64,000 nt of DNA from Gluconobacter japonicus (GTDB taxonomy: Bacteria; Pseudomonadota; Alphaproteobacteria; Acetobacterales; Acetobacteraceae): contig NZ_BEWO01000005.1 of assembly GCF_002723975.1 (NCBI RefSeq), forward strand, positions 1-64,000, read 5' to 3'. This document shows positions 6,055 to 27,374 of this stretch, in pieces (the stretch's first letter is position 1; each line of letters starts with the position of its first letter). Made by a program: the position numbers and the translations under genes. Under the pieces are notes generated by a model. It searched no databases and was not told where the DNA came from. It saw only the letters and a list, made by a program, of their open reading frames with translations.

Positions 6055-6834
6055 TTATGCTTCAGTTATAAGTTTGGATTTCAAGTTTTTCACAAGATCA
6101 GATCCGGATGCGACAAACCCATAACATTGCCGGACATTGTAGAGTGTAGCCTGCTCACAAAACTCCGGAGAGGTTGTCGCTGAGCAATCATTGAGAAGAA
6201 TACAATCATACCCCAGACACCCTGCATCCGTGAGCGTACTTAGAACGCATTGATCGCTGTTGACGCCGGCAAAAAGCAGGGTCTCCACACGCAGGTTTCT
6301 CAGGATCCCTTCAAGAGGAGTATCCCAAAAGCCACTCATCCTGTATTTTGCAACATGAATATCCTCTGCCTCGACGTGTAGTTCGTCGATAATGGCAGCA
6401 TTCCAGCTCCCATCTTCAAGCACTTTCCTGTCTGCTGCGCCCAATGCAGATCCGATGCCCTTATTTTCCCCGGCCGGATCGTAAACATGCAGCACTGAGG
6501 GAGGCAGGTTGAGTTTATCCGGACGATTGCCCCAGTTCAGCCAGATGACCGGAACATCATGCTCTCGCAGGACAGGAAGGAGCGTCTGTAAAGGCTTGAT
6601 GGGGCGACGCGCGGCAGAAATATCGACACCAATAGAGGCGAGCCAGCCTTCAGAATGACAGAAATCGTTCTGCATATCGATGACGATGATCGCAGTTTTT
6701 GCCAGATCAAGAGTCAGACTTTGTGGAACGGATGGAAGACTGACAGTTCTGGATTTACGGTCTGGTCGTAGCAGACTGATAGAAGCCTCTGTGGCACCCC
6801 AACTGTTAGCATATGTGCTACCCAGACGTCTCAT
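6055..6834 (-). CDS. isochorismatase-family cysteine hydrolase (amidase)
   Basis: Cytoplasmic hydrolase of 259 residues with the isochorismatase-like fold. The catalytic triad is visible: Asp53 in VIDMQNDFC, Lys163 in VAKYRMSGFW and Cys196 in GVNSDQCVLST. Family members hydrolyse C-N bonds, for example ureidoacrylate in pyrimidine breakdown (RutB), biuret, N-carbamoylsarcosine or nicotinamide. The N-terminus is about 40 residues longer than in nicotinamidases, closer to RutB/biuret-hydrolase-like proteins. It is the last gene of a seven-gene minus-strand operon and overlaps the cupin stop codon by four bases. With a cytosine-deaminase-like gene in the same operon, a ring-opened ureide or amide is a likely substrate, but this is inference. 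Confidence 0.85.
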   Translation of the reverse strand: MRRLGSTYANSWGATEASISLLRPDRKSRTVSLPSVPQSLTLDLAKTAIIVIDMQNDFCHSEGWLASIGVDISAARRPIKPLQTLLPVLREHDVPVIWLNWGNRPDKLNLPPSVLHVYDPAGENKGIGSALGAADRKVLEDGSWNAAIIDELHVEAEDIHVAKYRMSGFWDTPLEGILRNLRVETLLFAGVNSDQCVLSTLTDAGCLGYDCILLNDCSATTSPEFCEQATLYNVRQCYGFVASGSDLVKNLKSKLITEA

Positions 6835-7256
6835 TGACTCCCTCCGCAGAGTACAGCCAGGTCTTGAGCGTCCAGCTTAACGGGAATACCGCTACGAATT
6901 AAGTCGCCAAAAGCTTCATCCGGTGTCATGACAGTCAGCGTATAAAGCTTACTGGTGCCAGTGTTCTCCAGAACATGTTCCGAGCCAGGTTTAACCAGAA
7001 GAGCGTCTCCGGCTTTCAGCTCACAGCTTTTGCCGTCACACCAGGCGCGACCCGTACCCGAAAGAACGAAAAACATTTCGTCAGCGTCTGTATGTGTATT
7101 CGGAGGCGTGGCTCCTCCGGGTTCAAAGATTTCCACGACTGCGATGGAAGAATAATCACCAGCTTTCCTATCAAACAGGATGGCAAAGTAATTGGTTGAG
7201 TCCGGCGCAATCCGGAAGGCTTCAACACTATCGGGGCTGCATTTTGCAAAAGACAT
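6831..7256 (-). CDS. cupin-domain protein
   Basis: Small single-domain cupin of about 141 residues. The second cupin motif (GDALLVKPGSEHVLEN) is intact. The first motif reads THTDADEMFFVLSG, with H-x-D in place of H-x-H but the following glutamate kept, so metal binding may be altered. ATG at 7256 is preferred because it opens just after the preceding stop codon; the frame stays open to 7313. Cupins in catabolic operons act as small dioxygenases, isomerases or metabolite-binding proteins, and sequence alone cannot decide between these. It sits between the CocE-type hydrolase and the isochorismatase-like amidase. Confidence 0.75.
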   Translation of the reverse strand: MSFAKCSPDSVEAFRIAPDSTNYFAILFDRKAGDYSSIAVVEIFEPGGATPPNTHTDADEMFFVLSGTGRAWCDGKSCELKAGDALLVKPGSEHVLENTGTSKLYTLTVMTPDEAFGDLIRSGIPVKLDAQDLAVLCGGSQ

Positions 7257-7261
7257 GAGAG

Positions 7262-8890
7262 TTAGCTTTCCTGTTTGAGCCAAGGAAGAAGAAGATAGGT
7301 GCCGGAACCGCATTTCAGATGAACTGTTGTGACCCGCTGCTGATCCAGCGTCGCCGCGATGGGGCTGCCGCCTGTACCGGGATTGATCGGAAAGACCGGA
7401 AAGCAGGCGAGGGAGAGGGACAGCCTGAGCCGTTCACCCTTTTTGAGGGTCAAGCATGTGCCACGCATCGGAAGGAGAGTCTGACCGGGCTTAGCCAAGG
7501 CATAGCCTTCGGCAAGCGGGTGAACCTTTCCGTGACTGTCCACACGAGACAGAGTGGCGTGGATATCGAAGCTCTCGTATTCGCTTTCGAACTCGAAACA
7601 GCCTGTGACAGTCCCTGCCAGAAGTCTGTCCGTCTCCTGCAGGGGTGTCGTAAAGGTCAGCACGTCTGACCGAGCGTCTGTTCGCGCCCGATCTATGGGG
7701 CCGCCGGGAAAGCCAAAGCTGCCGCCACACGGCGCTGCCGGACGCCACGGATCAAGAGTGAGGCTTTCCGACAAAGCCAACACATCATCAGGCACCGCAT
7801 GAGCCAAGGCGCCATCTCGGGTATCAATGGCGGCGCGCCCACTCCCATATGGAAATGCCTGTGTGTTTCCTTCTGGAAGGTCTTGCAGATCCTGCCACTG
7901 GCACGCCCCCATGTCGAAAAGGCGGACAGGAGCAACCTGCTGTTCAGGTTCTGATTTCAGCCATTGATCGAAGAACCTGATCTGTTGCTGATCAATGTCT
8001 GTAATCGCATCGTCACCAACGTCCACATCCCCGATATGGCGGTCCCAGGGGAAATGCGCCCATGGTCCGACAATGAGCCGGGTCGGCGTGTGGGGAGAAA
8101 GCGCGCGATAAGCTTCGAGCGTTCCAGGGAGATGACTGTCATACCACCCGCCGATCAGCAGGACCCCTGGTGCTAATTCTGCAATATCGCTTAAGCGACT
8201 AGCGGGAGAGATTTTGTCCCAGTACGCATCACCGGGAGGCGTGTCTCGCCAGCAGGTGTAATGACTATACTTGGCCAGTAAGGCGTCATGCGCCGGAACG
8301 GTAGGCTGACGTCCATTGAAGGACGTCCCGCGGCTGGCAGCAAACAGGATCTGCTGAGCCTCGTAGTCTCCCTTGAGACGGGCCGTTTCCGCCGCGAGCT
8401 GTGTGGCCCATCCGATGTTCGCACGCATCGCGAAAGCGCCATTCTCGTACGCCCAGTCACGATCCAATTGCCAGCCAATCATGGCAGGTGCAATCGCCTT
8501 CAGCGCCTCAGGCTTTTCGCCGGCTGCCAGTAGCTGATTGCTCCCTTGGAAGGAAAAGCCAAACATGCCGACACGGCCATTGCTTCGAGGAAGCGAAGCG
8601 GCCCAGGCAATCGTATCGGCGCCATCTTCTGCTTCATGCTCGAAAAGAATGAACTCACCACCTGAGTCTCCACGACCACGGACGTCCTGCATGACGACAA
8701 TATAATCGTGACGGGCATACCATTCGGGCGGCGCATAGCAGAGAGACGTACCAATCTTCCGACCATACGCCTGACGCATGAGAAGAACGGGGAAAGGACC
8801 ATCTCCTTCCGGCTCCCAGATATCCGCCACAAGACGAATACCATCCCGTGTCAGCATGGCTTCCGTACGACGCGGCTTGAGAGCAACCAT
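7262..8890 (-). CDS. CocE/NonD-type serine hydrolase (X-Pro dipeptidyl-peptidase family)
   Basis: Alpha/beta hydrolase of about 542 residues. The N-terminal catalytic domain carries the nucleophile motif GFSFQG and the strand MQDVRGRGDSGGEF typical of cocaine esterase and glutaryl-7-ACA acylase relatives. The acid/base region includes LIGGWYDSHLPG and VGPWAHFPWD (likely Asp and His of the triad). A C-terminal jelly-roll (PepX_C) occupies about the last 220 residues. ATG 8890 overlaps the upstream stop codon (ATGA) and is chosen over the longer open frame to 8989. No signal peptide is seen, so it probably acts in the cytoplasm on an ester or amide. It is part of the importer operon, so its substrate should be what the ABC system brings in or a derivative. 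Confidence 0.85.
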   Translation of the reverse strand: MVALKPRRTEAMLTRDGIRLVADIWEPEGDGPFPVLLMRQAYGRKIGTSLCYAPPEWYARHDYIVVMQDVRGRGDSGGEFILFEHEAEDGADTIAWAASLPRSNGRVGMFGFSFQGSNQLLAAGEKPEALKAIAPAMIGWQLDRDWAYENGAFAMRANIGWATQLAAETARLKGDYEAQQILFAASRGTSFNGRQPTVPAHDALLAKYSHYTCWRDTPPGDAYWDKISPASRLSDIAELAPGVLLIGGWYDSHLPGTLEAYRALSPHTPTRLIVGPWAHFPWDRHIGDVDVGDDAITDIDQQQIRFFDQWLKSEPEQQVAPVRLFDMGACQWQDLQDLPEGNTQAFPYGSGRAAIDTRDGALAHAVPDDVLALSESLTLDPWRPAAPCGGSFGFPGGPIDRARTDARSDVLTFTTPLQETDRLLAGTVTGCFEFESEYESFDIHATLSRVDSHGKVHPLAEGYALAKPGQTLLPMRGTCLTLKKGERLRLSLSLACFPVFPINPGTGGSPIAATLDQQRVTTVHLKCGSGTYLLLPWLKQES

Positions 8891-10173
8891 CAGAGATCTC
8901 CTCCGAGAGTTTCGTAGGCTGGAGGGACGGCGTCGATGATGCGCCCGGCTCTCAGAACCGTGCGGCCTGTCTGATTGCGGCTCATCCACTCGTTCATGTT
9001 GCGGGTCGGAAAAACGATAAGATCGGCCACGGCACCTTTCTCAAGACGATGGTTGCGTCCCATCCAGTCTCCCGGCCGGGTGTTAACGGACTGCACCCAG
9101 GGTCGGCTGGTATGGTCGAGATGCCCAATGCGTGTGCCGCCCTGAAGGATTTCATGCATGTCGAAATCCCCATAGGCGTAGAAGGGGTCACGCACATTGT
9201 CGCTCGCCAGCATGACCGGCACGCCTGCGGCATCCAGTTCCTGCAACAGTGTCACACCCCGCCAGCGGGGGGTTCGACCGGGAGTCCGATCCTGAAGATA
9301 CATGTTACAGAGGGGGAGGCTAACTATACCAATCCCGGCTTCGGCCAGAAGAGAGATGATGCGTATTTGAGCGACGTCATCCTGTACGGTCAGGCTGCAA
9401 CAATGCCCGCACAGGATCTTATGGCGAAAGCGATGCCTGAGTGCTGCCTGAGCAACCAGTTCGAGCGCGGTACCACCTGTTTCGCTGTTTTCATCGACAT
9501 GCAGGTCCAGTTCCAGCCCATACTCCGTCGCCAGACCGAACAGCACGTCCAACGCGTCTTCCGTCGTGTTGTGCTTCATCAGAACGGCACCGAGTACGCC
9601 GCCTTCTGTCTCCGCAACACTGCGTACAATACCGTCCCGGTCTTCGCCCATATAGCGTTCCGGCATCGTGAGGGAGACGCCCTGAAGCGCGATCTTTCCA
9701 GCCCATTTCTTTTGTAGTCTGCGGAGAAGGGGCCAGACCCGGGCTCCATGAACACCGAACGTATCCAGGTGGGTCCGGATCGTGCTTGTGCCATGGGCAT
9801 AAGCACAGTGCAGGCTGAACTCCATGCGGCGTTCTACATCCGCTTCTGTCCAGTAAGCCTCCCGGTCTTGTGTCGTCGCCTGAAGCGCACCCATGAATGT
9901 TCCATCGGGATTGGGCGTCCGATCCCAGATGAAGGCCTTGTCCAGATGGGTGTGACTATCGGCAAAGCAGGGCCAGACCATTTGCCCCTTCAAGTCGACG
10001 TTTCCCGAGGTATGGGGAAGTTGGCCTGCCGGGACGATCTCCGCGATGTGTCCGTTCTCGAGTGCGATATCGCAGAGCTTGCTGCCTGCGAGTGCTGAAG
10101 GAAGCAGATCTTTCGGAATGCTCGCATTCAAAAGGCCAGAGAGAGACTGGCCAGCGGGAAAAGAAAAAGTCAT
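8890..10173 (-). CDS. cytosine-deaminase-like amidohydrolase
   Basis: Metal-dependent amidohydrolase of 427 residues in the CodA-like branch. Visible metal ligands are HTH in ADSHTHLDKAF, His in DLHVDEN, His in LCGHCC and Asp in ASDNVRDPFYAYGD; the last motif is characteristic of cytosine deaminases. Family members deaminate cytosine, isocytosine, creatinine-like or triazine rings. It overlaps the permease stop by four bases and the CocE gene start by one, so it is translationally coupled in the operon. Cytosine itself is possible, but the presence of a dedicated ABC importer and several downstream hydrolases argues for a less common heterocycle. Confidence 0.85.
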   Translation of the reverse strand: MTFSFPAGQSLSGLLNASIPKDLLPSALAGSKLCDIALENGHIAEIVPAGQLPHTSGNVDLKGQMVWPCFADSHTHLDKAFIWDRTPNPDGTFMGALQATTQDREAYWTEADVERRMEFSLHCAYAHGTSTIRTHLDTFGVHGARVWPLLRRLQKKWAGKIALQGVSLTMPERYMGEDRDGIVRSVAETEGGVLGAVLMKHNTTEDALDVLFGLATEYGLELDLHVDENSETGGTALELVAQAALRHRFRHKILCGHCCSLTVQDDVAQIRIISLLAEAGIGIVSLPLCNMYLQDRTPGRTPRWRGVTLLQELDAAGVPVMLASDNVRDPFYAYGDFDMHEILQGGTRIGHLDHTSRPWVQSVNTRPGDWMGRNHRLEKGAVADLIVFPTRNMNEWMSRNQTGRTVLRAGRIIDAVPPAYETLGGDL

Positions 10174-10934
10174 GGGCGGTGTCTCAGAGCGAAGCGTTGC
10201 AGGCTGGCGGCGGCGGCGTAAAGAACGAGGCCAGCGACGGTAATGAGGAAAAGCGCCGCGAACATGCGCGGAATATCCATCTGAAAGCCCGACTGAAGGA
10301 TCTGATAAGCCAGACCGGCTGAGTTACCGCCTGTTCCCGCAACAAATTCGGCAACAATCGCGCCGACCAGGGAGAGGCCGGTGGCAATCCGCAGACCCGC
10401 CATGAACATGGGAAGCGCGCTGGGGATGCGAAGCCGGATCAGCGTCTGAAGACGCGAGGCCTTGTGCATCTGGAAGTAAGCAGCCAGATCAGGATCAACG
10501 CTCCGTAGCCCCTGGAGTGTGTTGGAAATGACCGGGAAGATCGCGACCAGAGCCGCACAGGCCGTCAAAGCAAGCGGCGTGTTGTGGATGAGGATGATGA
10601 TCAAAGGCGCAATCGCCACAATCGGCGTGACCTGCATGATGACGACGTAGGGCATCAGGCAACGCTCGATAAGAGGACTTTGCACCAGCAGGAATGCGAC
10701 GAGCACGCCCCCCACAACAGCAGCGATCAAGGCAGCGAACGTGATTTCCAGCGTGATGAGCAGGGCATGGAGCAGCGCCACGCCATCGAGCATCAGGGCG
10801 CGCCATATGGCCGATGGCGATGGCATCAGATAGGGCGGGATATGCCAGAAACGGCAGATCCCCTCCCAGATCCCAAGAATAATGATACCGAGCGTGACGG
10901 GAGCCAGTAGCGAGAACGTGCGAGAGGACATCAT
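10170..10934 (-). CDS. ABC transporter permease (NMT1/SsuC-TauC type)
   Basis: Inner-membrane permease of 254 residues with about six hydrophobic segments. The cytoplasmic EAA-like loop is near the middle (YFQMHKASRLQTLIRLRIP), where the ATPase docks. It belongs to the BPD-transporter family used for nitrate, sulfonate, taurine and pyrimidine precursors (SsuC, TauC, ThiX, RibX). It overlaps the ATPase gene upstream and the amidohydrolase gene downstream by four bases each. It forms an importer with the binding protein at 11725-12726 and the ATPase at 10931-11728, and may also serve the orphan binding protein at 23.8 kb. Confidence 0.9.
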   Translation of the reverse strand: MMSSRTFSLLAPVTLGIIILGIWEGICRFWHIPPYLMPSPSAIWRALMLDGVALLHALLITLEITFAALIAAVVGGVLVAFLLVQSPLIERCLMPYVVIMQVTPIVAIAPLIIILIHNTPLALTACAALVAIFPVISNTLQGLRSVDPDLAAYFQMHKASRLQTLIRLRIPSALPMFMAGLRIATGLSLVGAIVAEFVAGTGGNSAGLAYQILQSGFQMDIPRMFAALFLITVAGLVLYAAAASLQRFALRHRP

Positions 10935-11728
10935 GCGCGCATCTCCTGCTGGATCATGCTTTCGCGACTGGCGTCTTCCAGAAGAATGGCCAGTTCCCGA
11001 CTGATCCCCGCAAACTGATCCGACAGGCGAAACTCTTCATTGCGCAGGATGGACTGATCGATCTCGTACTCGGCATGAATACGACCCGGACGGGCTGCCA
11101 TCACCATGACGCGGCTGGAAAGAAAAGCCGCTTCATGCAGGGCATGGGTTACGAACAGCGTTGTGAGGCCGTCTTCATAGCAAAGCCGCGCCATTTCTTC
11201 GTCCAGACGATTGCGCGTGAATTCATCCAGAGCACCGAATGGCTCGTCCATCAGGAGAAGGTCAGGTTCCGTGACAAGCGCCCGAGCGATGGACACACGC
11301 ATTTTCATGCCGCCGGAAAGCTGGGCCGGGTAATGTTCCGTGACGTGCCCCAGGCCTACGCGTTCCAGAGCCGCCAAAGCACGCTTGTCCGCCGTGGAGC
11401 GGTCTACTTTTTCCAGATCGAGAGGCAGACGCACATTTTTCGCGATCGTCGCCCAGGGCATCAACGTGGCATCCTGGAACACAAACGCCATGCGGCGCCC
11501 CTTGCGGCCGACGTCGCCAAAATTTCCACCCCACCAGTTCATTTTGCCACCGGATGGTGTGTGCAGATTGGCGATCAGCTTGAGAAGGGTGCTTTTTCCA
11601 CAACCCGATGGGCCAATGAGCGTGACAAAGTCTCCTTTTTCAACCGTGAGATCGACGGGAGACAGTCCGCGGACGCCATTAGGGAAAACTTTTTCAATGC
11701 TCGCGAGGGAAAGGACGGGACTGCTCAT
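10931..11728 (-). CDS. ABC transporter ATP-binding protein (NMT1/SsuB-TauB type)
   Basis: ATPase subunit of about 265 residues. Walker A is GPSGCGKST, the Q-loop region is [13 protein letters not shown], the signature is LSGGM and Walker B is [12 protein letters not shown], followed by the H-loop [14 protein letters not shown] 11728 overlaps the stop of the binding-protein gene as ATGA, so this start is preferred to the longer open frame reaching 11761. The 'PFGALD' form is typical of the nitrate/sulfonate/pyrimidine importer class. It powers the permease encoded next to it. Confidence 0.92.
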
Positions 11729-12726
11729 GCCGGAACCGTCGCCAGACCACCGCGGACACATTCAAGCGTGTAGGCACTTTTCCATTGCGGGTTTTCTGGA
11801 ACAAGCTGAGCGGCGAGCTGGATATCGTAAATGCGCTTCCAGCGTTCATCATTCATCGTCATGATAGGGGCTCCAGGCATTCCAAGAGCCTTGATTTCTT
11901 TCAGCTTCTGACGAGACCAGACGAGCTGATCAGCGCTCATATCCGGATTAGCCTTGCGAATGGCGGCATCGCCCTTACTGGCATCTCCGAAGATGTAGCG
12001 CTTCCAGCCCTCGCTGCTGGCAGCAATGAATTTCCGTAATTCCAGACCACGCTCTTCAAGTGTCTTACGAGACACCATCAGAACGTTTCCGTAAGCCGCG
12101 TATCCAAGATCATCCAGAAGGAAGAAATTGAAAGGAATGCCCGCCTTTTTCGCACCGTAAGGCTCGGATGAGACGAAAGCCTGCATGGCCATCTGCGGAT
12201 TGAAGGCGAAAGGTTGAAGATTGTAGGTGTAGGGGTGAACCTGATCTTCGGTGAAGCCGTACCGTTTTTTGAGCCATATCCAGAAACTGGCGCGGCCTTC
12301 CGAACTGATCAGAATGGGATGGCCCTTGAGTTCGGCAATGTCGTGGATATCCGGGTGGGTCATCAGGCCACCGACACCCTTTTGAAAGGTCGTGCCGATC
12401 GCGACGGCCGGGATACCCTGAATGGCGCAGCGGATCGCTTCTTCGCCCTGCATGATGGCGATGTCACACTGACCGGCCATCAGAAGCTGTGTCATGTTCA
12501 TCTGAGGGCCGCCCATCTGAATGGAGACATCCAGATCTTGCTGGGCGTAAAGGCCATCTTCTGACGCCTGATAGTAGCCACCATGCTCTGCCTGTGCATA
12601 CCAGTTGGTCAGAAGACTGAGCGGCTTCGTCGCGGCGTTTGCTCTTGCGGTGGGCAGGGAAGACAGAGCTCCCGCAGCCATGATGCCCTGAAGCATACTG
12701 CGGCGGTTGAGCCTTGGTAATGTCAT
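11725..12726 (-). CDS. NMT1/ThiY-type ABC substrate-binding protein (first copy)
   Basis: Exported periplasmic solute-binding protein of 333 residues. A twin-arginine leader (NRRSMLQGIM, cleavage near ARANA) precedes the NMT1/THI5-like domain, marked by LTNWYAQAEHGGYYQA. This motif is shared with proteins binding thiamine-pyrimidine precursors, riboflavin and other heterocycles. It opens the minus-strand operon that continues with ATPase, permease and catabolic enzymes. The paralogue at 23839-24846 is clearly related (TSWYAQAEFGGFYQA). The ligand is probably a flat nitrogen heterocycle; no closer statement can be supported. Confidence 0.9.
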   Translation of the reverse strand: MTLPRLNRRSMLQGIMAAGALSSLPTARANAATKPLSLLTNWYAQAEHGGYYQASEDGLYAQQDLDVSIQMGGPQMNMTQLLMAGQCDIAIMQGEEAIRCAIQGIPAVAIGTTFQKGVGGLMTHPDIHDIAELKGHPILISSEGRASFWIWLKKRYGFTEDQVHPYTYNLQPFAFNPQMAMQAFVSSEPYGAKKAGIPFNFFLLDDLGYAAYGNVLMVSRKTLEERGLELRKFIAASSEGWKRYIFGDASKGDAAIRKANPDMSADQLVWSRQKLKEIKALGMPGAPIMTMNDERWKRIYDIQLAAQLVPENPQWKSAYTLECVRGGLATVPA

Positions 12727-12850: not shown

Positions 12851-13375
12851 TCAGTCTCCCTGCTGCGTGAAGACACACACACCTAGCATTGTCATGAAGA
12901 AACGGAACGCCGCTTCCTGCCCATTCCAGACATGGGACTGCCACATCGCAAACCATTCACCACCGACAACAGAAAAACCGAAGAACCAGATCATGAAACC
13001 CAATGCGGTCGCGACAGGAACCAGCGCACGGGCAGAGCGAAACTCTTCAGCCGGCGCTTTGACCGCCTGTGCCATTTGCAACGCAGCGAAGGAAAAGATG
13101 GCACCAGTCAGGAATTCCGCTGCGATGATCAGAACATAAAAGATATGCCAGAGTACGGGGGATGAAACGGCCCTCCATCTCAGCGCATTGCCCGGAAATG
13201 TTGTATCCATAGACAGGACATGACGGACAAACTCATAGTTTGAGCCGTAATCCATCATATTGTTCACAGCCACCAATAGCCCAAACACTCCAAGAGACGC
13301 GACCATGACGGTTTTAGACGCTCGACTCAGGAATATGGCGCGAGTGGGATTCATGGGCGAAGAAAAGAGTGACAT
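12851..13375 (-). CDS. DUF2165 family integral membrane protein
   Basis: Membrane protein of 174 residues with four hydrophobic segments and the DUF2165 signature NNMMDYGSNYEFVRHVLSMD. Function unknown in the family. A second ATG at 13354 is an alternative start. It lies upstream of the importer operon on the same strand, separated by 124 bases, so it may be co-transcribed. It is divergent from the creatininase-family gene. Nothing in the sequence ties it directly to the catabolic pathway. Confidence 0.75.
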   Translation of the reverse strand: MSLFSSPMNPTRAIFLSRASKTVMVASLGVFGLLVAVNNMMDYGSNYEFVRHVLSMDTTFPGNALRWRAVSSPVLWHIFYVLIIAAEFLTGAIFSFAALQMAQAVKAPAEEFRSARALVPVATALGFMIWFFGFSVVGGEWFAMWQSHVWNGQEAAFRFFMTMLGVCVFTQQGD

Positions 13376-13506
13376 GCCAGACCTTCCAAGGGATTTTCAG
13401 GAACGCTAGCGGAATGTCCGAGCAGTTTGTGCGCTTTTTTTTGCACTCATATGATCGAAAATAGATGCTTTAAAAGTTGCAAAGTTCCTGTTTCTCATAT
13501 CTTTTC

Positions 13507-13532
13507 GTTCCGGGATAATATCATATCGGAAC
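13507..13532. promoter_or_regulatory. 26-bp dyad, candidate operator for divergent catabolic operons
   Basis: Arms GTTCCG and CGGAAC enclose a partly symmetric AT-rich core; 20 of 26 positions obey the dyad. It lies in the 225-base divergent space between the DUF2165/importer side (minus strand) and the creatininase/oxidase operon (plus strand, start 13601). It is a good candidate for a local regulator's site. The half sites differ from the CGAACA repeats next to the IclR gene, so a different regulator may be involved. Confidence 0.45.
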
Positions 13533-13600
13533 AGGAAATTTGTCGGCCCGGCTTGACCGGGATGCGTCATTCCACACGACGAACAACGGAAGCCAAGCCC

Positions 13601-15800: not shown

Positions 15801-15829
15801 GCCGGGAAGATCATCTTCCCGGCTTTTTT
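15801..15829 (+). terminator. rho-independent terminator after FAD oxidase
   Basis: GC-rich stem with arms GCCGGGAAGA and TCTTCCCGGC around TCA, followed by TTTTTT. It ends the creatininase/oxidase operon and overlaps the stop codon of the convergent FolD paralogue at 15828. Confidence 0.9.
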
Positions 15830-16706: not shown

Positions 16707-16714
16707 ATGCGGTC

Positions 16715-17590: not shown

Positions 17591-17618
17591 TAAAAAACAT
17601 CCAATCAGGAAGCGCCTT

Positions 17619-19081: not shown

Positions 19082-19950
19082 TCAGATCACTTGATCAGGT
19101 TCGTGCAGATCTGATGAGAGAAAGCTCAATCGAGCTTTTGCCGTCCCGTATTCTTGAACTCTCAGGAGTTTTGCCAGACCTTGATCGCGGCTCGCGAGTT
19201 TTTGTGACATGGCTGCCCGGCGTACCGTTCGTCGATGTTCTCGCCGCCTGTGACCTGTTAAAACTCTGCGGGTATCTCCCGGTCCCACATGTTGCCGCTC
19301 GTTCGATAAGAGACACTGAGCATCTCCGGGACATCTGCGCCGCACTGATCGAACGCGACATTCCACGCATGCTTCTAATCGCAGGCGGGGCAGACAAACC
19401 TGCCGGGATTTTCACAGACACCGTTCAGGTTCTGGAAACGGAAATTCCTGCCCAGGCCGGGATCAGAACGGTCTATGTGGCAGGCCACCCGGAGGGGCAC
19501 CCACAGGCTTCGGAGAAGCAACTGGAGCAGTATCTGCTCCGGAAACAGGAGCTGGCCCGGGCGCAGGGTCTGAACATGCAGATTATCACGCAGTTCTGCT
19601 TCGATGCAGCGCCAGTTCTGGATTGGGAAAAGCGCCTTAGGGCCGCAGGGATAAAATTGCCAATCAATCTTGGCGTGTATGGCCTGACGACACCCAAGAC
19701 GCTGGTTCGTTACGGTTTGGCCTGCGGTGTCGGACAATCCCTGCGCTTCATGCAGAAACAGCGCTGGAAACTGCATCGCTGGTTCACTCCCTGTAATCCG
19801 AAGGGTATGGTGGATGCGATCGCTGGATCCATTGCTGAAACCCCGGATACACTCTTCCACGGATTACACTTTTATCCGTTTGGAGCCATCGCCCGTACGC
19901 TCGAATGGCGCCGTAACCTGTCCTGTTCAGGCACTGGAGAACCGTCATGA
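19078..19950 (+). CDS. methylenetetrahydrofolate reductase-like protein
   Basis: 290-residue protein with the MTHFR TIM-barrel fold. The N-terminal glutamate region (SSIELLPSR, against the family EFFPP motif) and the GG-x-D loop (LIAGGADKPAG) are present, and the length matches bacterial MetF (about 296). It differs enough from MetF to suggest a catabolic subtype, such as those used with tetrahydrofolate-dependent demethylases. The ATGA overlaps with both folD and the lipoprotein gene show tight coupling. In this direction it would oxidise methyl-tetrahydrofolate to methylene-tetrahydrofolate for FolD; no methyltransferase gene is seen nearby. Confidence 0.8.
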   Translation: MIRSLDQVRADLMRESSIELLPSRILELSGVLPDLDRGSRVFVTWLPGVPFVDVLAACDLLKLCGYLPVPHVAARSIRDTEHLRDICAALIERDIPRMLLIAGGADKPAGIFTDTVQVLETEIPAQAGIRTVYVAGHPEGHPQASEKQLEQYLLRKQELARAQGLNMQIITQFCFDAAPVLDWEKRLRAAGIKLPINLGVYGLTTPKTLVRYGLACGVGQSLRFMQKQRWKLHRWFTPCNPKGMVDAIAGSIAETPDTLFHGLHFYPFGAIARTLEWRRNLSCSGTGEPS

Positions 19951-21257
19951 CGCATAAGCCCTTCGTTCTCACATCCATGGCAGCACTCCTTATACTGGGA
20001 GGATGTGCGGAGACGGGAGACAAGGCTCCTGTGTCTCATGACGAACACCTTAGCAGTGATCTCTACGGAGACGGCGGCGTCAGCGCGTTTTATCGTCCCC
20101 AGACAGCCATTCCGTCGATGCCGGGCCAGTTGATCCAACAGGAAGATATGGATCCGACAAAACTCCCAAAAGGCACTAGCCGTGGAATCAGGATCCTCTA
20201 CTCCTCGACGAACGGTCTGGGAAAGGGTGACCCGGTTGCAGTTTCCGGACAAATTCTGCTGCCACAAGGCAAGATGCCAGAAAACGGTTGGCCGGTTGTT
20301 GCCTGGGAGCATGGAACCACAGGCATTGCGGACGTCTGCGCTCCATCTTGGCGGGGATATTCCAGCCGTGACAAGGCCTATCTGTCTCGCTGGCTCTCTG
20401 AAGGCTTTGCTGTGGTCGCCAGCGACTATCAGGGGCTGGGCACACCGGGGCCACATCCTTATCTTCTGTACCGACCGGAGGGGTACAGCGTTCTGGATGG
20501 TCTGCGCGCATCTCTAAGCGGACTTCCGGGACAGATCAGGAACTGGATTGTTCTGGTCGGCCAGTCTCAGGGCTCTGGGGCTGCATTGGGCACAGCCTGG
20601 CTGGCTCCTTCTTACGCCCCAGACCTGAAAATCCACGGCGTCGTCGCAACTGGCCTTGTCACGGGCTTTGCGTCTTCGCCGACGGCCAAACACTCCCCCA
20701 TCCCGGAAGTCTACACAGACGCAACGAAAATGGACTCTGCTTTCGCCATGCTTCGGGTGGAGGGATCGGATCAATCTTTACATCCGGAGACGGACAGCCA
20801 AGCCGTTATGACCGATGCCGGTCACAAGATGTCTGAAATTGCGCGCCATGCCTGCCTACACAATCTTTTCGACAAGGCTGACGAGATGAAGGTGCAAAGC
20901 GATGCCTTGTTCAATGACAAGCTACCCACTTTTGAGACCGGGCATGACAGCGCGTTCACCATTCCTAACGCCCGGCTCAACTTTCCTGTCTTCGCTGGCA
21001 CCGGATTGGCGGACGGTGAGGCGGGTGTGAATGGTCAGTACAATGCCGTGGCAGCAATGTGCGACGCCGGGACGCATGTTCTGTGGCAGCGTTATCCGGG
21101 CGTCACGCATAATGGCGCGGTCAATGTCTCGCTGAAGGACTCTGTTCCCTATGTGAAGAGCCTTCTGGCTGGGCGAACGCCTCCACAGAACTGCTCTGCC
21201 ATCACTGTCCCTGGACCTGTCGAAAAGCCACTTCCAAACATTCCATGGAACAACTGA
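19947..21257 (+). CDS. secretory-lipase-like alpha/beta hydrolase lipoprotein
   Basis: 436-residue protein with a lipoprotein signal peptide (lipobox LILGGC, Cys20), so it is likely anchored in the periplasm or outer membrane. It resembles the fungal/bacterial secretory lipase (LIP) family. The nucleophile is Ser207 in VGQSQGSG; probable acid and base are Asp in GTGLADGEAG and His in GVTHNGAV. It overlaps the MTHFR-like gene as ATGA. An esterase in the envelope could release the imported substrate from a conjugate before uptake. Specificity is not visible. Confidence 0.8.
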   Translation: MTHKPFVLTSMAALLILGGCAETGDKAPVSHDEHLSSDLYGDGGVSAFYRPQTAIPSMPGQLIQQEDMDPTKLPKGTSRGIRILYSSTNGLGKGDPVAVSGQILLPQGKMPENGWPVVAWEHGTTGIADVCAPSWRGYSSRDKAYLSRWLSEGFAVVASDYQGLGTPGPHPYLLYRPEGYSVLDGLRASLSGLPGQIRNWIVLVGQSQGSGAALGTAWLAPSYAPDLKIHGVVATGLVTGFASSPTAKHSPIPEVYTDATKMDSAFAMLRVEGSDQSLHPETDSQAVMTDAGHKMSEIARHACLHNLFDKADEMKVQSDALFNDKLPTFETGHDSAFTIPNARLNFPVFAGTGLADGEAGVNGQYNAVAAMCDAGTHVLWQRYPGVTHNGAVNVSLKDSVPYVKSLLAGRTPPQNCSAITVPGPVEKPLPNIPWNN

Positions 21258-21315: not shown

Positions 21316-22497
21316 ATGCAGACCACGGATGACAGATCAGGCTATCACCTCTTTCTCGTTCTGATAATTTACGTCTATTCGGCCGTATCCATGGCCGTCG
21401 TGGGGTTGGTGGTTCCGTTTATCAGCGCCATTGCGGAAGCAAGGCACGTCTCGCCGGGACCGGTCGGAACGAGCCTGTCGTTCTTCTCCGTTCCAGCAGC
21501 GTTCACGTCGTTTCTTTTCGGCATGATCGTTGATCGCATCGGGGTGAAAAAAGCTTTTCCGATTTCCATTGGACTGACACTGATCGGCGATACGCTTTTG
21601 CTGTCCACCTCCACGCTTTGGAGTCTACGGATTGGCCTGATGCTTTGCGGATGCGGTTTTGCTTTCGCGACCGCGGGCTCTCCTGTTCTGTTTATGCGGT
21701 ATCTGCCGGAGAAAAGCCGATCCCGTGCCCTGGCATTCTGGTCCACCTTCGCTCCTGCGGGATATTCTGCGGGATTACTCCTCGCTATTCCGTTCCTTGC
21801 AGGCGGACGATGGCAGGCAGCCTGCCTGTCCCATATAGTGCTAATGCTGGTCATTCTGGCGGTCGGCATTCTGACTTTGGCCAGACTGAAAGAGCCATTA
21901 ACGGCGGAAATTTTTTCCGGCCCCGTTAAAAAACTCTCCCCCTGGCTGGTGACCGCACTCGGCCTCTCGGTCACGCTCCCGAATGGTATCGCGTATGGGA
22001 CAAGCCTGATTGCGCCATCCTATCTGGCACGTGTGCATCATGTCAGTCTGGCGGCGTCTGCGGCCGAAGTGGCAATCGTAAAGATCGTCGTGATGATGGC
22101 TGGAGGTCTGATCGTCAGTCTTTGTGTGGGGACGGAACGTCGATCCCGCATCATGTTCTGTGTCATGGCGGCGATCGGCATGGCCGCACAGTGGATGCTG
22201 CTTTTCCCCGGCAGCACGATGGTGATCGCCTCTCTCGGACTGTTCATTTGGACTTTCGCCTATAGCGGCCTGAGCGGAGCAGGAATGTCCCTGCTACCCG
22301 TCGTTGCCACAGACCGGAAGACGCGTGGCGCAGTCGCAGGCACAGTCGGGCAGTTCATTTCTGTTTCAGCCGTCCTGATGCCTTATCTTTATTTTTCCAC
22401 CACACTCTGGACCAGCTATGCCCTGTTTGCATTCTGCGCCCTGAGCGTGGGCTGTCTGACCATTTTTCAGGTCAGGCAGCATCGCGTCGCAGCCTAA
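21316..22497 (+). CDS. MFS transporter
   Basis: Inner-membrane carrier of 393 residues with about 12 hydrophobic helices and an MFS motif-A-like loop (GMIVDRIGVKKAF) between helices 2 and 3. It is the last gene of the plus-strand operon that starts at 17619, 58 bases after the lipoprotein gene, with AGGA before the ATG. It probably imports or exports a pathway substrate or product. The gene ends 14 bases before the stop of the convergent oxygenase gene; an inverted repeat (CGCCGCGTT / AACGCGGCG, 22504-22541) in that overlap could help termination. Confidence 0.85.
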   Translation: MQTTDDRSGYHLFLVLIIYVYSAVSMAVVGLVVPFISAIAEARHVSPGPVGTSLSFFSVPAAFTSFLFGMIVDRIGVKKAFPISIGLTLIGDTLLLSTSTLWSLRIGLMLCGCGFAFATAGSPVLFMRYLPEKSRSRALAFWSTFAPAGYSAGLLLAIPFLAGGRWQAACLSHIVLMLVILAVGILTLARLKEPLTAEIFSGPVKKLSPWLVTALGLSVTLPNGIAYGTSLIAPSYLARVHHVSLAASAAEVAIVKIVVMMAGGLIVSLCVGTERRSRIMFCVMAAIGMAAQWMLLFPGSTMVIASLGLFIWTFAYSGLSGAGMSLLPVVATDRKTRGAVAGTVGQFISVSAVLMPYLYFSTTLWTSYALFAFCALSVGCLTIFQVRQHRVAA

Positions 22498-22510: not shown

Positions 22511-23521
22511 TTATGAAGGCCTGGTTTTTTGCAACGCGGCGAAATTGGCCTGAAGGCGCTCAAGAAGATAATTCTGGGCCGAGATAGGCGCGTATTTCTT
22601 ATCCGGCCCCTGAATGATCGCATCGCGGTTAGCCTGACAGAAAAACGGAATGGACAACCGTTCTCCAAGATACTCACCGGGTTTCGGCATCCGCACACGG
22701 TGCAGGGTGGAGAGGAGTTTGTCATCACTCCAACGCATGAGCATGTCACCAATATTGCAGGTCACGTAACCGGTGGCTGGCTCAACGTCCGTCCACGCCC
22801 CACTATCAACATCCTTCCCCGGGCAGACCTGTAATCCGCCTTCACCCGCTCGTTGATGCAGCAGGGTCAGGCAGTCAAAATCTGAATGTGCTCCGGCGCG
22901 CCAGTTTTCGAAGTCTGCAGGCTTGGCATTTGCCATGTTCATGTAGTGGATAAGGCGCAGGGTACACTGATAATCTGGCGAAGAAGGTTCATGCCGCGAT
23001 GTGAAAAAATCCTCATCGAAGCCGAGCTTCATCGCAAAACACGACAGGATTTTCATTCCCAGCACCCAGTTCTGATGTTCGAACTGCGTGAGAAATCCTT
23101 GAAAACCGGCAATATCCGCATCGTGCGGCCACAGCCCCGCCATGCGCGGAAGCGTAATCTGGAAGGACTCTTTATGATCAGGCGTACCCGTTGAGGGCCG
23201 GACCTGTTCCCGAAACTCCCAACCGGCATTGGTGCCGGGTTTCAAGGGGAATGCCGCTTTTGTCTGTGTCGGAAGAGCAAAAAACTGCTCGGCCAGCGAA
23301 AACGCCCGATTAATATCGTCCTGCGAAATGCCGTGATTATAGACCTGGAAAAAGCCGATTTCCGTCGCAGCAGCCCACAGAGCATCAGCTATTTCCTGCT
23401 TGCGCTCTTCGAATGACGACAGGTCAATTCTGGGAATATCTCTGACGATACTGGTTCCAACTCCGCCAATGCGGCGCTCGGTCTCAATTTCACTCATGAG
23501 TGTCTTGGCTGAGGTGCTCAT
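22511..23521 (-). CDS. 2-oxoglutarate/Fe(II)-dependent oxygenase (isopenicillin N synthase-like)
   Basis: 336-residue oxygenase. The N-terminal DIOX_N region begins at PRIDLSSF. The iron ligands are His212 and Asp214 (AHSDFD) and His274 (STLHRV), and the 2-oxoglutarate-binding R-x-S is Arg288/Ser290 (ERLSIPFF). Relatives hydroxylate or demethylate small molecules; an N- or O-demethylation would release formaldehyde, which would link it to the folate genes of the island. It is convergent with the MFS gene and divergent from the second binding-protein gene. Confidence 0.87.
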   Translation of the reverse strand: MSTSAKTLMSEIETERRIGGVGTSIVRDIPRIDLSSFEERKQEIADALWAAATEIGFFQVYNHGISQDDINRAFSLAEQFFALPTQTKAAFPLKPGTNAGWEFREQVRPSTGTPDHKESFQITLPRMAGLWPHDADIAGFQGFLTQFEHQNWVLGMKILSCFAMKLGFDEDFFTSRHEPSSPDYQCTLRLIHYMNMANAKPADFENWRAGAHSDFDCLTLLHQRAGEGGLQVCPGKDVDSGAWTDVEPATGYVTCNIGDMLMRWSDDKLLSTLHRVRMPKPGEYLGERLSIPFFCQANRDAIIQGPDKKYAPISAQNYLLERLQANFAALQKTRPS

Positions 23522-23838
23522 CTGCTCAGTCTCTCCTTATGCCTGACGAAAGACAGCAGGGACCACGCGTAAAATGAATGGGGGACAAACGGGGGATGAC
23601 TCCGAACATATTCCTCCATCCAAGCCTGTTGCGCAGACCTGCTGGAGCAATGCCCAAAATCTTCTTGAAGATCCCGACCGCTTATACTCGTTCAAAATTC
23701 AAAACATATCAAAGACCGCGCTGTCAATTCCAAAGCGTCGTCATCAAAACAGCATCAGATCAAACGCAAATAGAGACTTCCGGAAAAATCATTTCGGTTC
23801 ATAAACTGTGTGCATAGCGAATGGGAGAATGTCCCCTT
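23522..23838. promoter_or_regulatory. divergent control region of oxygenase and second binding protein
   Basis: About 317 bases without a gene. It holds CGAACATATT (23603-23612), identical to the left part of the second dyad beside the IclR gene. No matching right half site is seen (CCTCC follows instead of GTTTC). Possible shared control by the IclR protein is a weak inference. Confidence 0.3.
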
Positions 23839-24846
23839 ATGTCCAGAATCATGCTTGGTCGCCGCCAGTCTCTCCTCGGTTTGACCGCCGGTCTTGGCGC
23901 GCTTTCCATGCCGTTCGTTCAGACAGCACGTGCTGCTGGCACGCCCGTAAAGCTCGTCACATCATGGTATGCACAGGCAGAATTCGGCGGTTTTTATCAG
24001 GCGCTTGCCAAAGGATATTATGCACGGGAAGGGCTGGACGTCACAATTGAGGCAGCCAGCCCGCAGATGAATGTTCCGCAACTTCTTGCAGCCGGACGAG
24101 CCGACTTCATTACCGGATATGACTTCCAGCTTCTCTCTGCTGTCGCGTCTGGTATTCCCCTCGTTGCCGTGGCGAGTACGTTCCAACATGATCAGCAGGG
24201 GCTGATGACGCACGCCGGAGTTACTGATCTTCAGCAGCTTAAGGATCATCCCATCCTGATTGCCTCGTCGTCCCATGCGACCTTCTGGCCATGGCTCAGG
24301 AAACGCTTTGGCTATGCGGAAGAGCAGGCGAGGCCTTACTCTTTCAACCTTCAGCCTTTCTTTTTTGATAAAACCATGGCCGTGCAGGCTTACGCGTCAT
24401 CCGAGTTGTGGGATGCGAAATTGAAGTACGTGCCAGTCGAGTTCTTTCTGTTCAAGGATCTGGGATATCCGCCATATGGCGCCCCAATGGTCACCACCCA
24501 GCAGATGGTGAAGACAGACAAAAACAAGGTGAACAGCTTCGTAAAAGCATCGCTACTTGGCTGGAGCGACTATTTTCAGGATCCCACTCCGGGGAATGCT
24601 TTGATTCTGAAAGCCAATCCAAACATGACGCCTGAGCACCTGACATTCGGTTACGAAGGGCTGAAGAAAGCGAACGTCCTTCTCTCTGACGATGTCCGGA
24701 CAAAAGGGCTGGGCGCAATGACGACTGCCCGATGGCAGGCGACACGGGATTTCATGGTCAATCAAAACCTTCTCCCAGCTGATGCAGACTGGAAAAGCGC
24801 CTTCACAACAGAATTTGTAGATAACCTCCGGATCATGCCCACATGA
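23839..24846 (+). CDS. NMT1/ThiY-type ABC substrate-binding protein (second copy)
   Basis: Exported binding protein of about 335 residues with a twin-arginine-like leader (GRRQSLLGLTAG, cleavage near ARAAG) and the family motif TSWYAQAEFGGFYQA. ATG 23839 is chosen because GGAGAA lies eight bases upstream; the ATG at 23821 has no ribosome-binding site. It is a diverged paralogue of the binding protein at 11725-12726 but has no permease or ATPase of its own, so it probably docks on the transporter at 10.2-11.7 kb. It overlaps the deaminase gene as ATGA, which suggests that its ligand is the deaminase substrate or a relative. Confidence 0.88.
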   Translation: MSRIMLGRRQSLLGLTAGLGALSMPFVQTARAAGTPVKLVTSWYAQAEFGGFYQALAKGYYAREGLDVTIEAASPQMNVPQLLAAGRADFITGYDFQLLSAVASGIPLVAVASTFQHDQQGLMTHAGVTDLQQLKDHPILIASSSHATFWPWLRKRFGYAEEQARPYSFNLQPFFFDKTMAVQAYASSELWDAKLKYVPVEFFLFKDLGYPPYGAPMVTTQQMVKTDKNKVNSFVKASLLGWSDYFQDPTPGNALILKANPNMTPEHLTFGYEGLKKANVLLSDDVRTKGLGAMTTARWQATRDFMVNQNLLPADADWKSAFTTEFVDNLRIMPT

Positions 24847-26201
24847 CGCTCCTTATCCACAACACCTGCGGTATTCTCACCGGCCTGAAAGGTGACGCAG
24901 CCAGAAGAACGGGAAGTCTTCGCATCCGTGATGGAAAAATTGTCGAAATCGGTGACCTGTCTCCTCATGACGGAGAAACAGTGCTTGATGCGAAAGGCGG
25001 CGTTGTCTCACCCGGCCTGATCAGCACGCATCACCATCTGTTCCAGAGTGTTCTCAAGGCAGTCCCGACGGCCATCAATAAGCCGCTTGAGCCTTGGCTG
25101 CGTCTTGTTCCTAACACCTACTGGAGCCGTATCGATGAACGGGCCCTGAATGTTGCTGCGCGGATCGGGATGGTGGAGCTGCTCCTGTCAGGTTGTACGA
25201 CAGTCGCGGATCATCATTACCTGTTTGCAGACATGTACGCTTATGACCCCACTGCAGTTCTGTTCGATGCTGCCGAAGATCTGGGCCTTCGCTACGTTCT
25301 GGCGCGGGGAGGAACAACACGGACCAGAAAATTCGATACGGACGAGGTTATTCCTGCCCCGACGGAAACCTTGGATACCATGCTCAAGCGCGTCGATGCG
25401 CTTGTCAGCCGGTATCATCAGTCCGGGCCGAACGCGAAACGCCGGATTGCTCTGGCACCCAATACGCCCACGTGGGGCGTCACGCCTGATGAACTACGCC
25501 AGATGGCCGTGGCGGCACGAAGTATGGGCATTTCCCTGCATTCGCACCTGTCGGAGACGGAGAATTACGTCAGGTTCTGCCTGGAAACATACAATATGCG
25601 GCCTGTTCAGTTCGTGGCGGAGCATGGCTGGGTCGGAAATGATGTGTGGTTCGCACATCTGGTCCATCTGGATGAGAGCGAACTCAGGCTTCTTGCCCAG
25701 ACGGGCACCGGCATGGCGCATTGCCCACAAAGCAATTGTCGACTTGGTTCAGGAATTGCGCCCGCGCCCGCTCTGGATGCCTTGGGAGGGCGCGTCTCTC
25801 TGGCTGTTGATGGTGCAGCGTCCAATGAAGCGTGTGACATGAGTGCAGAAATGCATTGCGCGTGGATGGTCCATCGCGCGGTTCAGGGAGCAGGAGCAGT
25901 GACCGCTGAAGACGTCATGCGTTGGTCCACCTCTGAAGGAGCTGCCATTCTGGGGCTTTCGGATGTGGGTCGGATAGAAGTGGGAGCGACGGCAGATGTG
26001 GTCATTCATGGTCTGGATGCCCCTCGGTGCGCAGGGATGCATGATCCGCTGATAGCGCCGGTCGTCTCTGGGGCTACGACTGTTCGGCATGTCCTGATGG
26101 ATGGAAAACCCGTTGTGGTGGACGGAATGATTCCAGGGCTGGATCTGGAAGCACTCCTGGCAGAAGCGAAAAGCGTTGTAGGGTGCCTCGCAGTGTCGTG
26201 A
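24843..26201 (+). CDS. 8-oxoguanine/isoxanthopterin-deaminase-like amidohydrolase
   Basis: 452-residue metal-dependent deaminase of the AtzA/TrzN/8-oxoguanine deaminase branch. Metal and catalytic residues are visible: HHH at 63-65 (STHHHLFQS), His and Glu in LHSHLSETE, His in WFAHLVHLDE, and Asp in LAVDGAASNE. Known relatives remove amino groups from 8-oxoguanine, isoxanthopterin, pterin carboxylates, or s-triazines such as melamine. The coupled binding-protein gene upstream suggests that the ring is imported intact. Which heterocycle is used cannot be decided from sequence. Confidence 0.85.
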   Translation: MTLLIHNTCGILTGLKGDAARRTGSLRIRDGKIVEIGDLSPHDGETVLDAKGGVVSPGLISTHHHLFQSVLKAVPTAINKPLEPWLRLVPNTYWSRIDERALNVAARIGMVELLLSGCTTVADHHYLFADMYAYDPTAVLFDAAEDLGLRYVLARGGTTRTRKFDTDEVIPAPTETLDTMLKRVDALVSRYHQSGPNAKRRIALAPNTPTWGVTPDELRQMAVAARSMGISLHSHLSETENYVRFCLETYNMRPVQFVAEHGWVGNDVWFAHLVHLDESELRLLAQTGTGMAHCPQSNCRLGSGIAPAPALDALGGRVSLAVDGAASNEACDMSAEMHCAWMVHRAVQGAGAVTAEDVMRWSTSEGAAILGLSDVGRIEVGATADVVIHGLDAPRCAGMHDPLIAPVVSGATTVRHVLMDGKPVVVDGMIPGLDLEALLAEAKSVVGCLAVS

Positions 26202-26303
26202 CGGGAAGCAATACAAGGCATGACCTATGGCTTCAGGCCATCCTCTGATAGTCTTGCTGTTTTCATTCGAATTCCCATCTGTCTTCCCAGAAAAGGAAAT
26301 TCC

Positions 26304-27374
26304 ATGCTGACCTGCGTTGGTTATGCCGCTTCCAGTCCGACGTCTCCGCTGACGCCATTCGCATTTGAACGCCGGGACTGTGGTCCAATGGATGTTCAGA
26401 TTGACATCACCCATTGCGGTGTCTGCCATTCTGACATTCACACAGCCCGAAGCGAGTGGGGACCAGCGTCCTATCCGGTTGTACCCGGTCACGAGATCAT
26501 CGGGCGTGTCAGCGCCGTAGGGCGTGACGTCACCCGCTTCAAAGCTGGGGATCTGGTCGGTGTGGGCTGCATGGTTGATTCATGCCGCTCCTGTGCGTCC
26601 TGTGAAGCTGGGCTGGAGCAGTATTGCGATACCGGCCCAACCTGGACCTATAACAGCCCCGATACGGCGTTCCCCGTAGAAGGTGCCCACACATACGGCG
26701 GATATTCTCGTGCGGTTGTCGTGGATGAGGGATTTGTTCTTCGAATTCCCGAAAATCTGGATCCAGCCGCTGCGGCACCTCTTCTCTGTGCGGGTATTAC
26801 GACCTGGTCTCCACTGGCGCACTGGAAGATCGGTGCTGGCCATAAAGTCGGTGTTGTCGGGCTTGGCGGCCTTGGACATATGGCTGTCAAATTTGCCGTG
26901 GCACTAGGGGCCGAAGTGACACTGTTCACGACGTCTCCCGGCAAAATCGAAGACGGCAAGCGTCTCGGCGCACACCGGGTTGTCATCTCCCGTGATGCCG
27001 ATACCATGGCAGCAGAAGCGAACCGGTTTGACTTCATTCTGGATGCCGTCTCCGCCGACCACGACATCAATGCCTATCTCGCGCTCCTGAAACAGGACGG
27101 GCACATGGTTCTGGTCGGTCTTCCGGAAAAGCCGATGTCCATCGGGGCTTTCAGCCTCGTTGCAAAGCGCCGCAGTCTTGCAGGCTCGGCCATTGGTGGC
27201 ATCCAGGAGACGCAGGAAATGCTTGATTTCTGCGGGAAACATAACATCACCAGCGATATTGAAGTCATTCGGATGGAGGACATCAACAATGCCTATGAAC
27301 GCGTACTGCGTTCCGATGTGAAGTACCGGTTTGTGATCGATATGGCGTCCATGCCAGCAACACTCGAAGGCTGA
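26304..27374 (+). CDS. zinc-dependent NAD(P) alcohol dehydrogenase (YahK/CAD type)
   Basis: Medium-chain dehydrogenase of 356 residues. Catalytic zinc ligands are in HCGVCHSD and PGHE, and the structural zinc Cys cluster is SCRSCASC plus QYC. The nucleotide-binding motif is GLGGLGHMAVK. It reduces or oxidises aldehydes and alcohols with NAD(P)H. ATG 26304 has AGGAAA upstream; the frame is open to 26220 without family similarity. It follows the deaminase gene by about 100 bases, and its stop overlaps the nrtR start by one base (TGATG). Confidence 0.9.
   Translation: MLTCVGYAASSPTSPLTPFAFERRDCGPMDVQIDITHCGVCHSDIHTARSEWGPASYPVVPGHEIIGRVSAVGRDVTRFKAGDLVGVGCMVDSCRSCASCEAGLEQYCDTGPTWTYNSPDTAFPVEGAHTYGGYSRAVVVDEGFVLRIPENLDPAAAAPLLCAGITTWSPLAHWKIGAGHKVGVVGLGGLGHMAVKFAVALGAEVTLFTTSPGKIEDGKRLGAHRVVISRDADTMAAEANRFDFILDAVSADHDINAYLALLKQDGHMVLVGLPEKPMSIGAFSLVAKRRSLAGSAIGGIQETQEMLDFCGKHNITSDIEVIRMEDINNAYERVLRSDVKYRFVIDMASMPATLEG

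Follow-up and report, generated by a model that had tools for sequence, protein, structure and literature searches.

We analyzed a 64,000-nucleotide window of Gluconobacter japonicus DNA (the first 64 kb of contig NZ_BEWO01000005.1, in a genome of 3.16 Mb) and focused on an island at positions 6055 to 27374, which we favor, with moderate confidence, as a single system that imports and catabolizes a purine- or pterin-like ring. Open reading frames and profile matches delineated 21 likely genes with intact frames. A preliminary description of this DNA had counted about 19, including an importer, two ring deaminases, amidases, an oxidase, an oxygenase, an IclR regulator, two FolD proteins, an MTHFR-like protein, an esterase, and an MFS carrier. 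All these families were found intact at their positions, and our count adds the ABC ATPase and permease, the S15 hydrolase, the cupin, DUF2165, FlavR, a second NMT1 protein, and the zinc alcohol dehydrogenase. The genes form four groups: a left block on the minus strand (DUF2165 to isochorismatase), the creatininase and FAD oxidase genes on the plus strand, a folate operon in which IclR-FolD1 faces FlavR-FolD2-MTHFR-LIP-MFS, and a right block in which a 2-oxoglutarate (2OG) oxygenase faces NMT1b-AmHyd-alcohol dehydrogenase. The features are as follows.

1360..2379 (-): LysR regulator (Pfam), left of the island
2723..5155 (+): TonB-dependent receptor, putative outer-membrane importer (Pfam), left of the island
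6055..6834 (-): isochorismatase-family amidase (RutB profile, 133 bits; cut-off, 378)
6831..7313 (-): cupin protein (profile match)
7262..8989 (-): S15 hydrolase of the CocE/NonD type (profile match)
8890..10173 (-): CytDeam, cytosine-deaminase-like amidohydrolase (PRK07583, 538.5 bits; cut-off, 403)
10170..10934 (-): ABC importer permease (profile match)
10931..11761 (-): ABC importer ATPase (profile match)
11725..12726 (-): NMT1a, periplasmic binding protein (profile match)
12851..13375 (-): DUF2165 membrane protein
13427..14437 (+): creatininase-family hydrolase (profile match)
14434..15792 (+): FADox, FAD-binding oxidase (profile match)
15828..16745 (-): FolD1, FolD paralogue without the catalytic lysine
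16715..17470 (-): IclR regulator, distant PcaR/PobR type (149 bits versus 285)
17538..18200 (+): FlavR, flavodoxin-like NAD(P)H oxidoreductase
18227..19081 (+): FolD2, with K, Q, and D present and an altered C-terminal motif
19078..19950 (+): MTHFR-like protein, in a clade with LigM- and chloromethane-linked MTHFRs
19947..21257 (+): LIP, secretory-lipase-type esterase
21316..22497 (+): MFS transporter (profile match)
22511..23521 (-): 2OG-Fe(II) oxygenase (top PDB match, thymine dioxygenase, 102 bits)
23640..23694 (-): xanthine riboswitch (NMT1 RNA, RF03054; covariance model)
23821..24846 (+): NMT1b, periplasmic binding protein
24843..26201 (+): AmHyd, PRK12393 deaminase (670.6 bits; NCBIfam cut-off, 543; top PDB match, 2PAJ)
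26220..27374 (+): zinc alcohol dehydrogenase, membership uncertain

Comparison with the Gluconobacter loci L034 and L037 gave dN/dS values of 0.009 to 0.13 for 15 of the 21 genes, in line with purifying selection. Among named strains, the closest relatives of the island belong to Gluconobacter thailandicus, G. frateurii, G. cerinus, and Gluconobacter sp. Gdi; the folate operon is complete in these. In Gluconobacter sp. Gdi (G163, L085, 7344-8378), NMT1b is split into two frames of 156 and 180 amino acids and is thus interrupted. The LysR regulator and the TonB receptor are probably also members of the system. Relatives of the former were found in a Rhizobium cluster (38%), in Klebsiella (32%), and beside NMT1b-AmHyd in G381, one of the genomes compared below (42%), and homologues of the latter (60 to 63%) have nucleoside hydrolases and system genes as neighbors in G321 and G381.

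A xanthine riboswitch and the possible identity of the ring

The preliminary account of the island did not contain the riboswitch. The RF03054 copy (23694-23640, minus strand) scored 39.6 bits against a gathering score of 36 (E value of 3.1e-5 over 64 kb) and sits about 120 bases upstream of the start of the 2OG oxygenase, beside the NMT1 and PRK12393 genes. It was the only one recovered when the genome was searched, 150 of the 413 first-look candidates having been scored. RF03054 was present at all 10 scanned loci that have AmHyd and the 2OG oxygenase together, half of which are from Gluconobacter, including the window; the other nine are Gluconobacter L034, L035, L037, and L085, Qingshengfaniella L108, Paracoccaceae La6 L109, Klebsiella L111, G447 L114 (which holds two copies), and Rahnella L149. 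Between the riboswitch and the oxygenase lies a 27-codon frame (23526-23609, minus strand) with a GGAGG-like site, ending 4 bases before the oxygenase start; it is possibly a leader through which the riboswitch acts.

According to the available part of PMC7373994, riboswitches of this class bind xanthine and uric acid and switch genes off, and the linked genes include 2OG-type oxygenases, NMT1 proteins, PRK12393, and tadA; the same part leaves the exact roles of the oxygenases unestablished and names isoxanthopterin among the compounds purchased for ligand tests. The island shares with these operons the aptamer 5' of a 2OG oxygenase, the NMT1 proteins, and the PRK12393 deaminase, and it differs in co-inheriting a deaminase/creatininase/FAD-oxidase block and the folate operon, its aptamer being a predicted one. 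The view that the gene combination was undescribed needs qualification: the riboswitch operon type, with NMT1, PRK12393, and 2OG oxygenase, is already in that source.

The two ring deaminases of the preliminary description are of the PRK07583 and PRK12393 types, and both score above their cut-offs. By alignment, AmHyd resembles 2PAJ, which we take to be isoxanthopterin deaminase, one of the Sargasso Sea enzymes, over nearly its full length (residues 3 to 447 of 452, 422 bits), compared with 262 bits for the 8-oxoguanine deaminase 7ww2. The substrates of the Sargasso Sea enzymes are isoxanthopterin and pterin-6-carboxylate (PMC5270733, in the part available). A pterin deaminase gene followed by an endoribonuclease gene is described in an excerpt of PMC9513972, and this endoribonuclease is possibly of the RidA kind found in CytDeam clusters. 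Motif scans of the collected loci for the Variovorax pterin deaminase or Arad3529 gave no match. The PDB matches of NMT1b are a transport binding protein and, at a weak level, ThiY/THI5-type proteins that bind pyrimidines.

Pyrimidines, methylated purines, and pterins had all been thought to fit. Because of the riboswitch, the PRK12393 deaminase, and the thymine-dioxygenase-like oxygenase, we favor a purine- or pterin-type ring over a plain pyrimidine. We rejected a Rut-type pyrimidine pathway: the island shares with it an isochorismatase-type amidase and, in some relatives (6 of 20 regions), RidA, but the isochorismatase falls far under the RutB cut-off, and the profile matches include no RutA-type oxygenase.

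A narrower form of our reading, which competes with a pterin substrate, is that the system takes up guanine-type nucleosides with methyl or other modifications, and that AmHyd produces xanthine by removing an amino or methylamino group. Xanthine and uric acid as the riboswitch ligands would suit it, as would the genomic surroundings in two carriers from other genera: in G381, the neighborhood of system genes includes nucleoside hydrolases, an apparent adenine deaminase, and proteins of the adenosine-deaminase, purine permease, and purine nucleoside permease families (Pfam), and in G048 a nucleoside hydrolase lies near the folate operon, beside an apparent TonB receptor. We regard this as a tentative possibility. 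The closer likeness of AmHyd to 2PAJ argues against it, and oxidative demethylation yields formaldehyde, for which no MTHFR is needed. Moreover, the annotated part of the island has no nucleoside gene; nucleoside hydrolases are encoded elsewhere, one of several in the genome being a family match at 60725-61666 (minus strand) on the same contig.

Inheritance of the three blocks

We then looked into the distribution of the blocks in 29 genomes, with carrier thresholds of at least 75% for FolD2 in Gluconobacter, at least 58% for CytDeam, and at least 65% for AmHyd. FolD2 passed in 5 of 26 Gluconobacter genomes, and the seven-gene folate operon was also found in G048 and G381 at 47 to 78% identity. 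The FolD2/folate operon, CytDeam, and AmHyd occurred in the same seven genomes (G000, G154, G155, G163, G169, G048, and G381), covering three genera, and the set was missing from the other 22, among which we counted G321, with a decayed folate locus. Weaker AmHyd matches (32 to 37%) were seen in carriers and in three noncarriers. As judged from these presences and absences, the marker genes of the three blocks are jointly inherited, and the idea of a single system is better supported than the neighborhood alone would imply.

The arrangement of the blocks varies. In G048, the left and right blocks adjoin, on a contig other than that of the folate operon; in G381, the left block shares a contig with the folate operon, and AmHyd is on another; and in G163, the left block is relocated away from the rest. 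The DUF2165 gene was found too in G048, G381, G163, and Ruegeria clusters. Rearranged neighbors had been named in the preliminary description as a sign against one pathway; the blocks do lie apart in these three genomes, yet they are kept as a set. G321, which has neither deaminase at the thresholds, retains an 18-kb stretch with IclR, MTHFR, and LIP, in which no FolD1 or FlavR match was found, the remainder of the genome not having been searched for FolD. Its decayed folate locus (L080, 6253-9847) contains FolD2 as an apparent fragment. In G048 (L162, 15444-18161), the left block is followed by another FAD oxidase (38%) and another copy of CytDeam (44%).

Across 385 genomes sampled class-wide, 19 passed the PRK07583 cut-off, and only two of these (G000 and G447), and no other genome, passed that of PRK12393. 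We evaluated 20 CytDeam regions, representing 21 of 23 CytDeam places (our own genome and one contig-end place excluded), and, as controls, 10 of 11 AmHyd regions with distant relatives (37 to 41%), L114 having been omitted as a genuine AmHyd-2OG locus. The neighbors in the 20 regions were NMT1 (16), FADox (12), FlavR (12, at 32 to 50% identity), creatininase (11), RidA (6), S15 (5), isochorismatase (4), and cupin (3); none of them was found in the 10 controls. AmHyd was in none of the 20 regions. Similar clusters exist in annotated records from Rhizobium, Comamonadaceae, Ruegeria (with DUF2165), and Pantoea, and relatives of the left and right blocks adjoin on Klebsiella and Rahnella plasmids. 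A literature search returned no paper uniting four of the six left-block families.

Alternatively, the three blocks could be separate modules for different substrates, brought together by co-travel or a shared niche. Their separation in G163, G048, and G381 is in keeping with this, as is the left block outside the Acetobacteraceae, which lacks both folate genes and AmHyd in all 20 regions. We nevertheless consider such modules unlikely, given the joint absence in 22 genomes, the degraded folate locus in G321, a genome without the other two, and the FlavR family of the folate operon, which accompanies the left block in 12 regions. Since it does so, FlavR bridges the two. An early idea that the left block has nothing to do with the folate operon was dropped after the region counts and the 29-genome comparison. 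Of the earlier proposal, a single co-inherited system acting on a nitrogen heterocycle is supported, with the same seven carriers and a left block of which part recurs, clustered, in alphaproteobacteria.

Two side observations concern plasmids. The atrazine plasmid pADP-1 carries, at 7947-9278 of L148 and roughly 7 kb away from atzD, a 43% relative of the CytDeam-like amidohydrolase found in Klebsiella. On the La6 plasmid (L109, 1122-3636), a FolD, an apparent MetV-like protein, and a different MetF adjoin the AmHyd-2OG cluster as a second folate set.

The folate operon and its one-carbon source

The MTHFR-like protein matched the Pfam MTHFR family with 30 bits (cut-off, 24), and its best solved relative is 7xg9 (158 bits), presumably the enzyme from Sphingobium SYK-6. 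The SYK-6 MTHFR oxidizes 5-methyl-tetrahydrofolate (5-methyl-THF) after LigM (PMC12585457). In a tree of 38 rows, constructed with the SYK-6 sequence not included and two S6-like rows excluded (L053, short; L045, long-branched), the MTHFR-like protein grouped with LigM- and chloromethane-linked enzymes, apart from 15 housekeeping MetF proteins (support of 100/100). The Glu and Gln positions, which we assume to be catalytic, are kept in the folate-operon MTHFR-like proteins. The island protein thus falls in the same broad clade as that of the SYK-6 pathway, but no LigM partner was found in the island or the genome, and two nonstandard FolD paralogues stand in its place. Likewise, plasmid pCMU01 of Methylorubrum extorquens CM4 encodes a MetF relative (36%), which together with Lichenihabitans makes up the sister pair in the tree, at modest support (94/80); the CM4 cluster differs in having methyltransferase and cobalamin families, none of which is among the island profile matches.

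A GCV_T-type gene adjoins the relative of the MTHFR-like protein at five of the nine distant genome loci, and other relatives have PurU or FolD alongside; in four plasmid records the neighbor is of the aminomethyltransferase type, and a further relative is encoded on the Methylorubrum chloromethane plasmid. Together with the distant PcaR/PobR likeness of IclR, these GCV_T and aminomethyltransferase neighbors would agree with a LigM-type O-demethylation of methoxy-aromatics, in which the folate operon takes methyl groups from plant phenolics under the IclR regulator, and LIP serves as an ester hydrolase. We judge this very unlikely and rejected it as the source of methyl-THF: the genome has no LigM-type match, and its three GCV_T matches look like GcvT, YgfZ, and MnmE by their scores or translations (other methyltransferase families were not searched); no aromatic ring-cleavage family is among the island profile matches; and the co-inheritance is with ring deaminases. 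No paper joining ligM, folD, and purU was retrieved by a literature search. On an Agrobacterium fabrum plasmid (L106, 11486-15833), CBASS defense genes lie beside an aminomethyltransferase/MTHFR cluster.

That ring carbon passes to folate, as the preliminary description had it, is conjectural: the MTHFR-like protein appears to be of the kind that oxidizes a methyl group already on folate, and the search for a methyl-transfer enzyme, made in the GCV_T family only, found none. On sequence grounds, the link of the folate operon to the island is visible in joint inheritance, not in chemistry.

We also analyzed the two FolD proteins. In our alignment, the lysine of the YxxxK motif is Ile in 7/7 FolD1 proteins and Lys in 7/7 FolD2 and 3/3 reference FolD proteins; the row of the housekeeping FolD is partial and was counted for no N-terminal motif. 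FolD1 also has a cysteine in DVDC (7/7) and has lost the glutamine of LVQLPLP in six of seven cases, G048 retaining it. FolD2 keeps K, Q, and D in 7/7, and its PGGVGP motif is changed to an SFG type in 7/7. The roles of the Lys, Gln, and Asp are given in the available part of PMC3338484, and, according to an excerpt of PMC5688156, E. coli FolD K54N has no detectable cyclohydrolase and about 19% of its dehydrogenase activity left. By alignment, then, FolD1 is without the lysine needed for cyclohydrolase activity. Because it is under purifying selection (dN/dS of 0.09 to 0.10), it probably works in a changed role. The island offers both a FolD that is still under selection without its cyclohydrolase lysine and a reverse-type MTHFR for which no LigM partner was found.

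A proposed catabolic system

Building on the parts, the riboswitch, and the joint inheritance of the three block markers, we infer roles in import, deamination, oxidation, and hydrolysis. We propose that the TonB receptor, the two NMT1-type binding proteins, and the ABC transporter import a ring compound, that the PRK12393- and PRK07583-type amidohydrolases strip its amino groups, and that ring oxidation falls to the 2OG oxygenase and to the pair of FAD oxidase and FlavR. The creatininase-, isochorismatase-, and CocE-type enzymes would hydrolyze the opened product, and one branch would lead to xanthine or a close analogue, shutting off the oxygenase through riboswitch feedback. In some acetic acid bacteria, the second operon (IclR-FolD1/FlavR-FolD2-MTHFR-LIP-MFS) would oxidize a one-carbon unit on THF: the MTHFR-like protein may convert 5-methyl-THF to methylene-THF, FolD2 may convert this to methenyl/formyl-THF, with FolD1 being a paralogue limited to dehydrogenase activity or altered in another way, and PurU, encoded in the same window (48292-49170), may release formate. 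The methyl group would come either from imported reduced folates or through an unrecognized methyltransferase.

Several observations weigh against this single system. No RF03054 copy at the gathering score was found near AmHyd in G048 or G381, where no relative of the island's 2OG oxygenase was seen nearby (a TauD-type one is near in G381), nor in 16 scanned left-block regions. The seven carriers are not independent, five being of one genus; absence of the folate operon from the 21 other Gluconobacter genomes was judged by FolD2 alone, and some of these have LIP paralogues (55 to 57%). Folate genes lie by the left block in none of the 20 alphaproteobacterial regions, and the folate link is seen in Acetobacteraceae only, with a FolD and a MetF of another kind lying near AmHyd in La6. 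Members of the MTHFR clade (at least 32% over most of the length) occur in 7 of 150 family genomes, five of which hold them without the operon's other genes nearby. Finally, no LigM-type demethylase was found among the GCV_T matches of the genome, and no island gene corresponds to a known THF methyltransferase.

A doubtful but specific alternative is that the island is a folate/pterin catabolic system that makes xanthine from reduced folates and pterins of the environment. AmHyd would deaminate isoxanthopterin-type pterins, the 2OG oxygenase would hydroxylate the resulting lumazine, and some island enzyme would contract the ring to xanthine-8-carboxylate, the resulting xanthine then closing the operon. 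Such a ring contraction is reportedly an orphan step of McNutt's Alcaligenes pathway, a term that appeared in none of the 12 papers listed out of 43. No demethylase would be required, because the MTHFR-like protein and FolD1/FolD2 would take the one-carbon unit from imported 5-methyl-THF. If true, this would account for the xanthine made by riboswitch operons, a point left open in the available part of PMC7373994.

For the broader purine- or pterin-type system that we favor, the carriers are cultivable acetic acid bacteria, and species of the same genus lack the set, so that the question of what the oxygenases of riboswitch operons do is open to comparison of growth and of mutants. Directly after the alcohol dehydrogenase gene, at 27374-31759, we found an NrtR-type regulator with nadA, nadB, and nadC.

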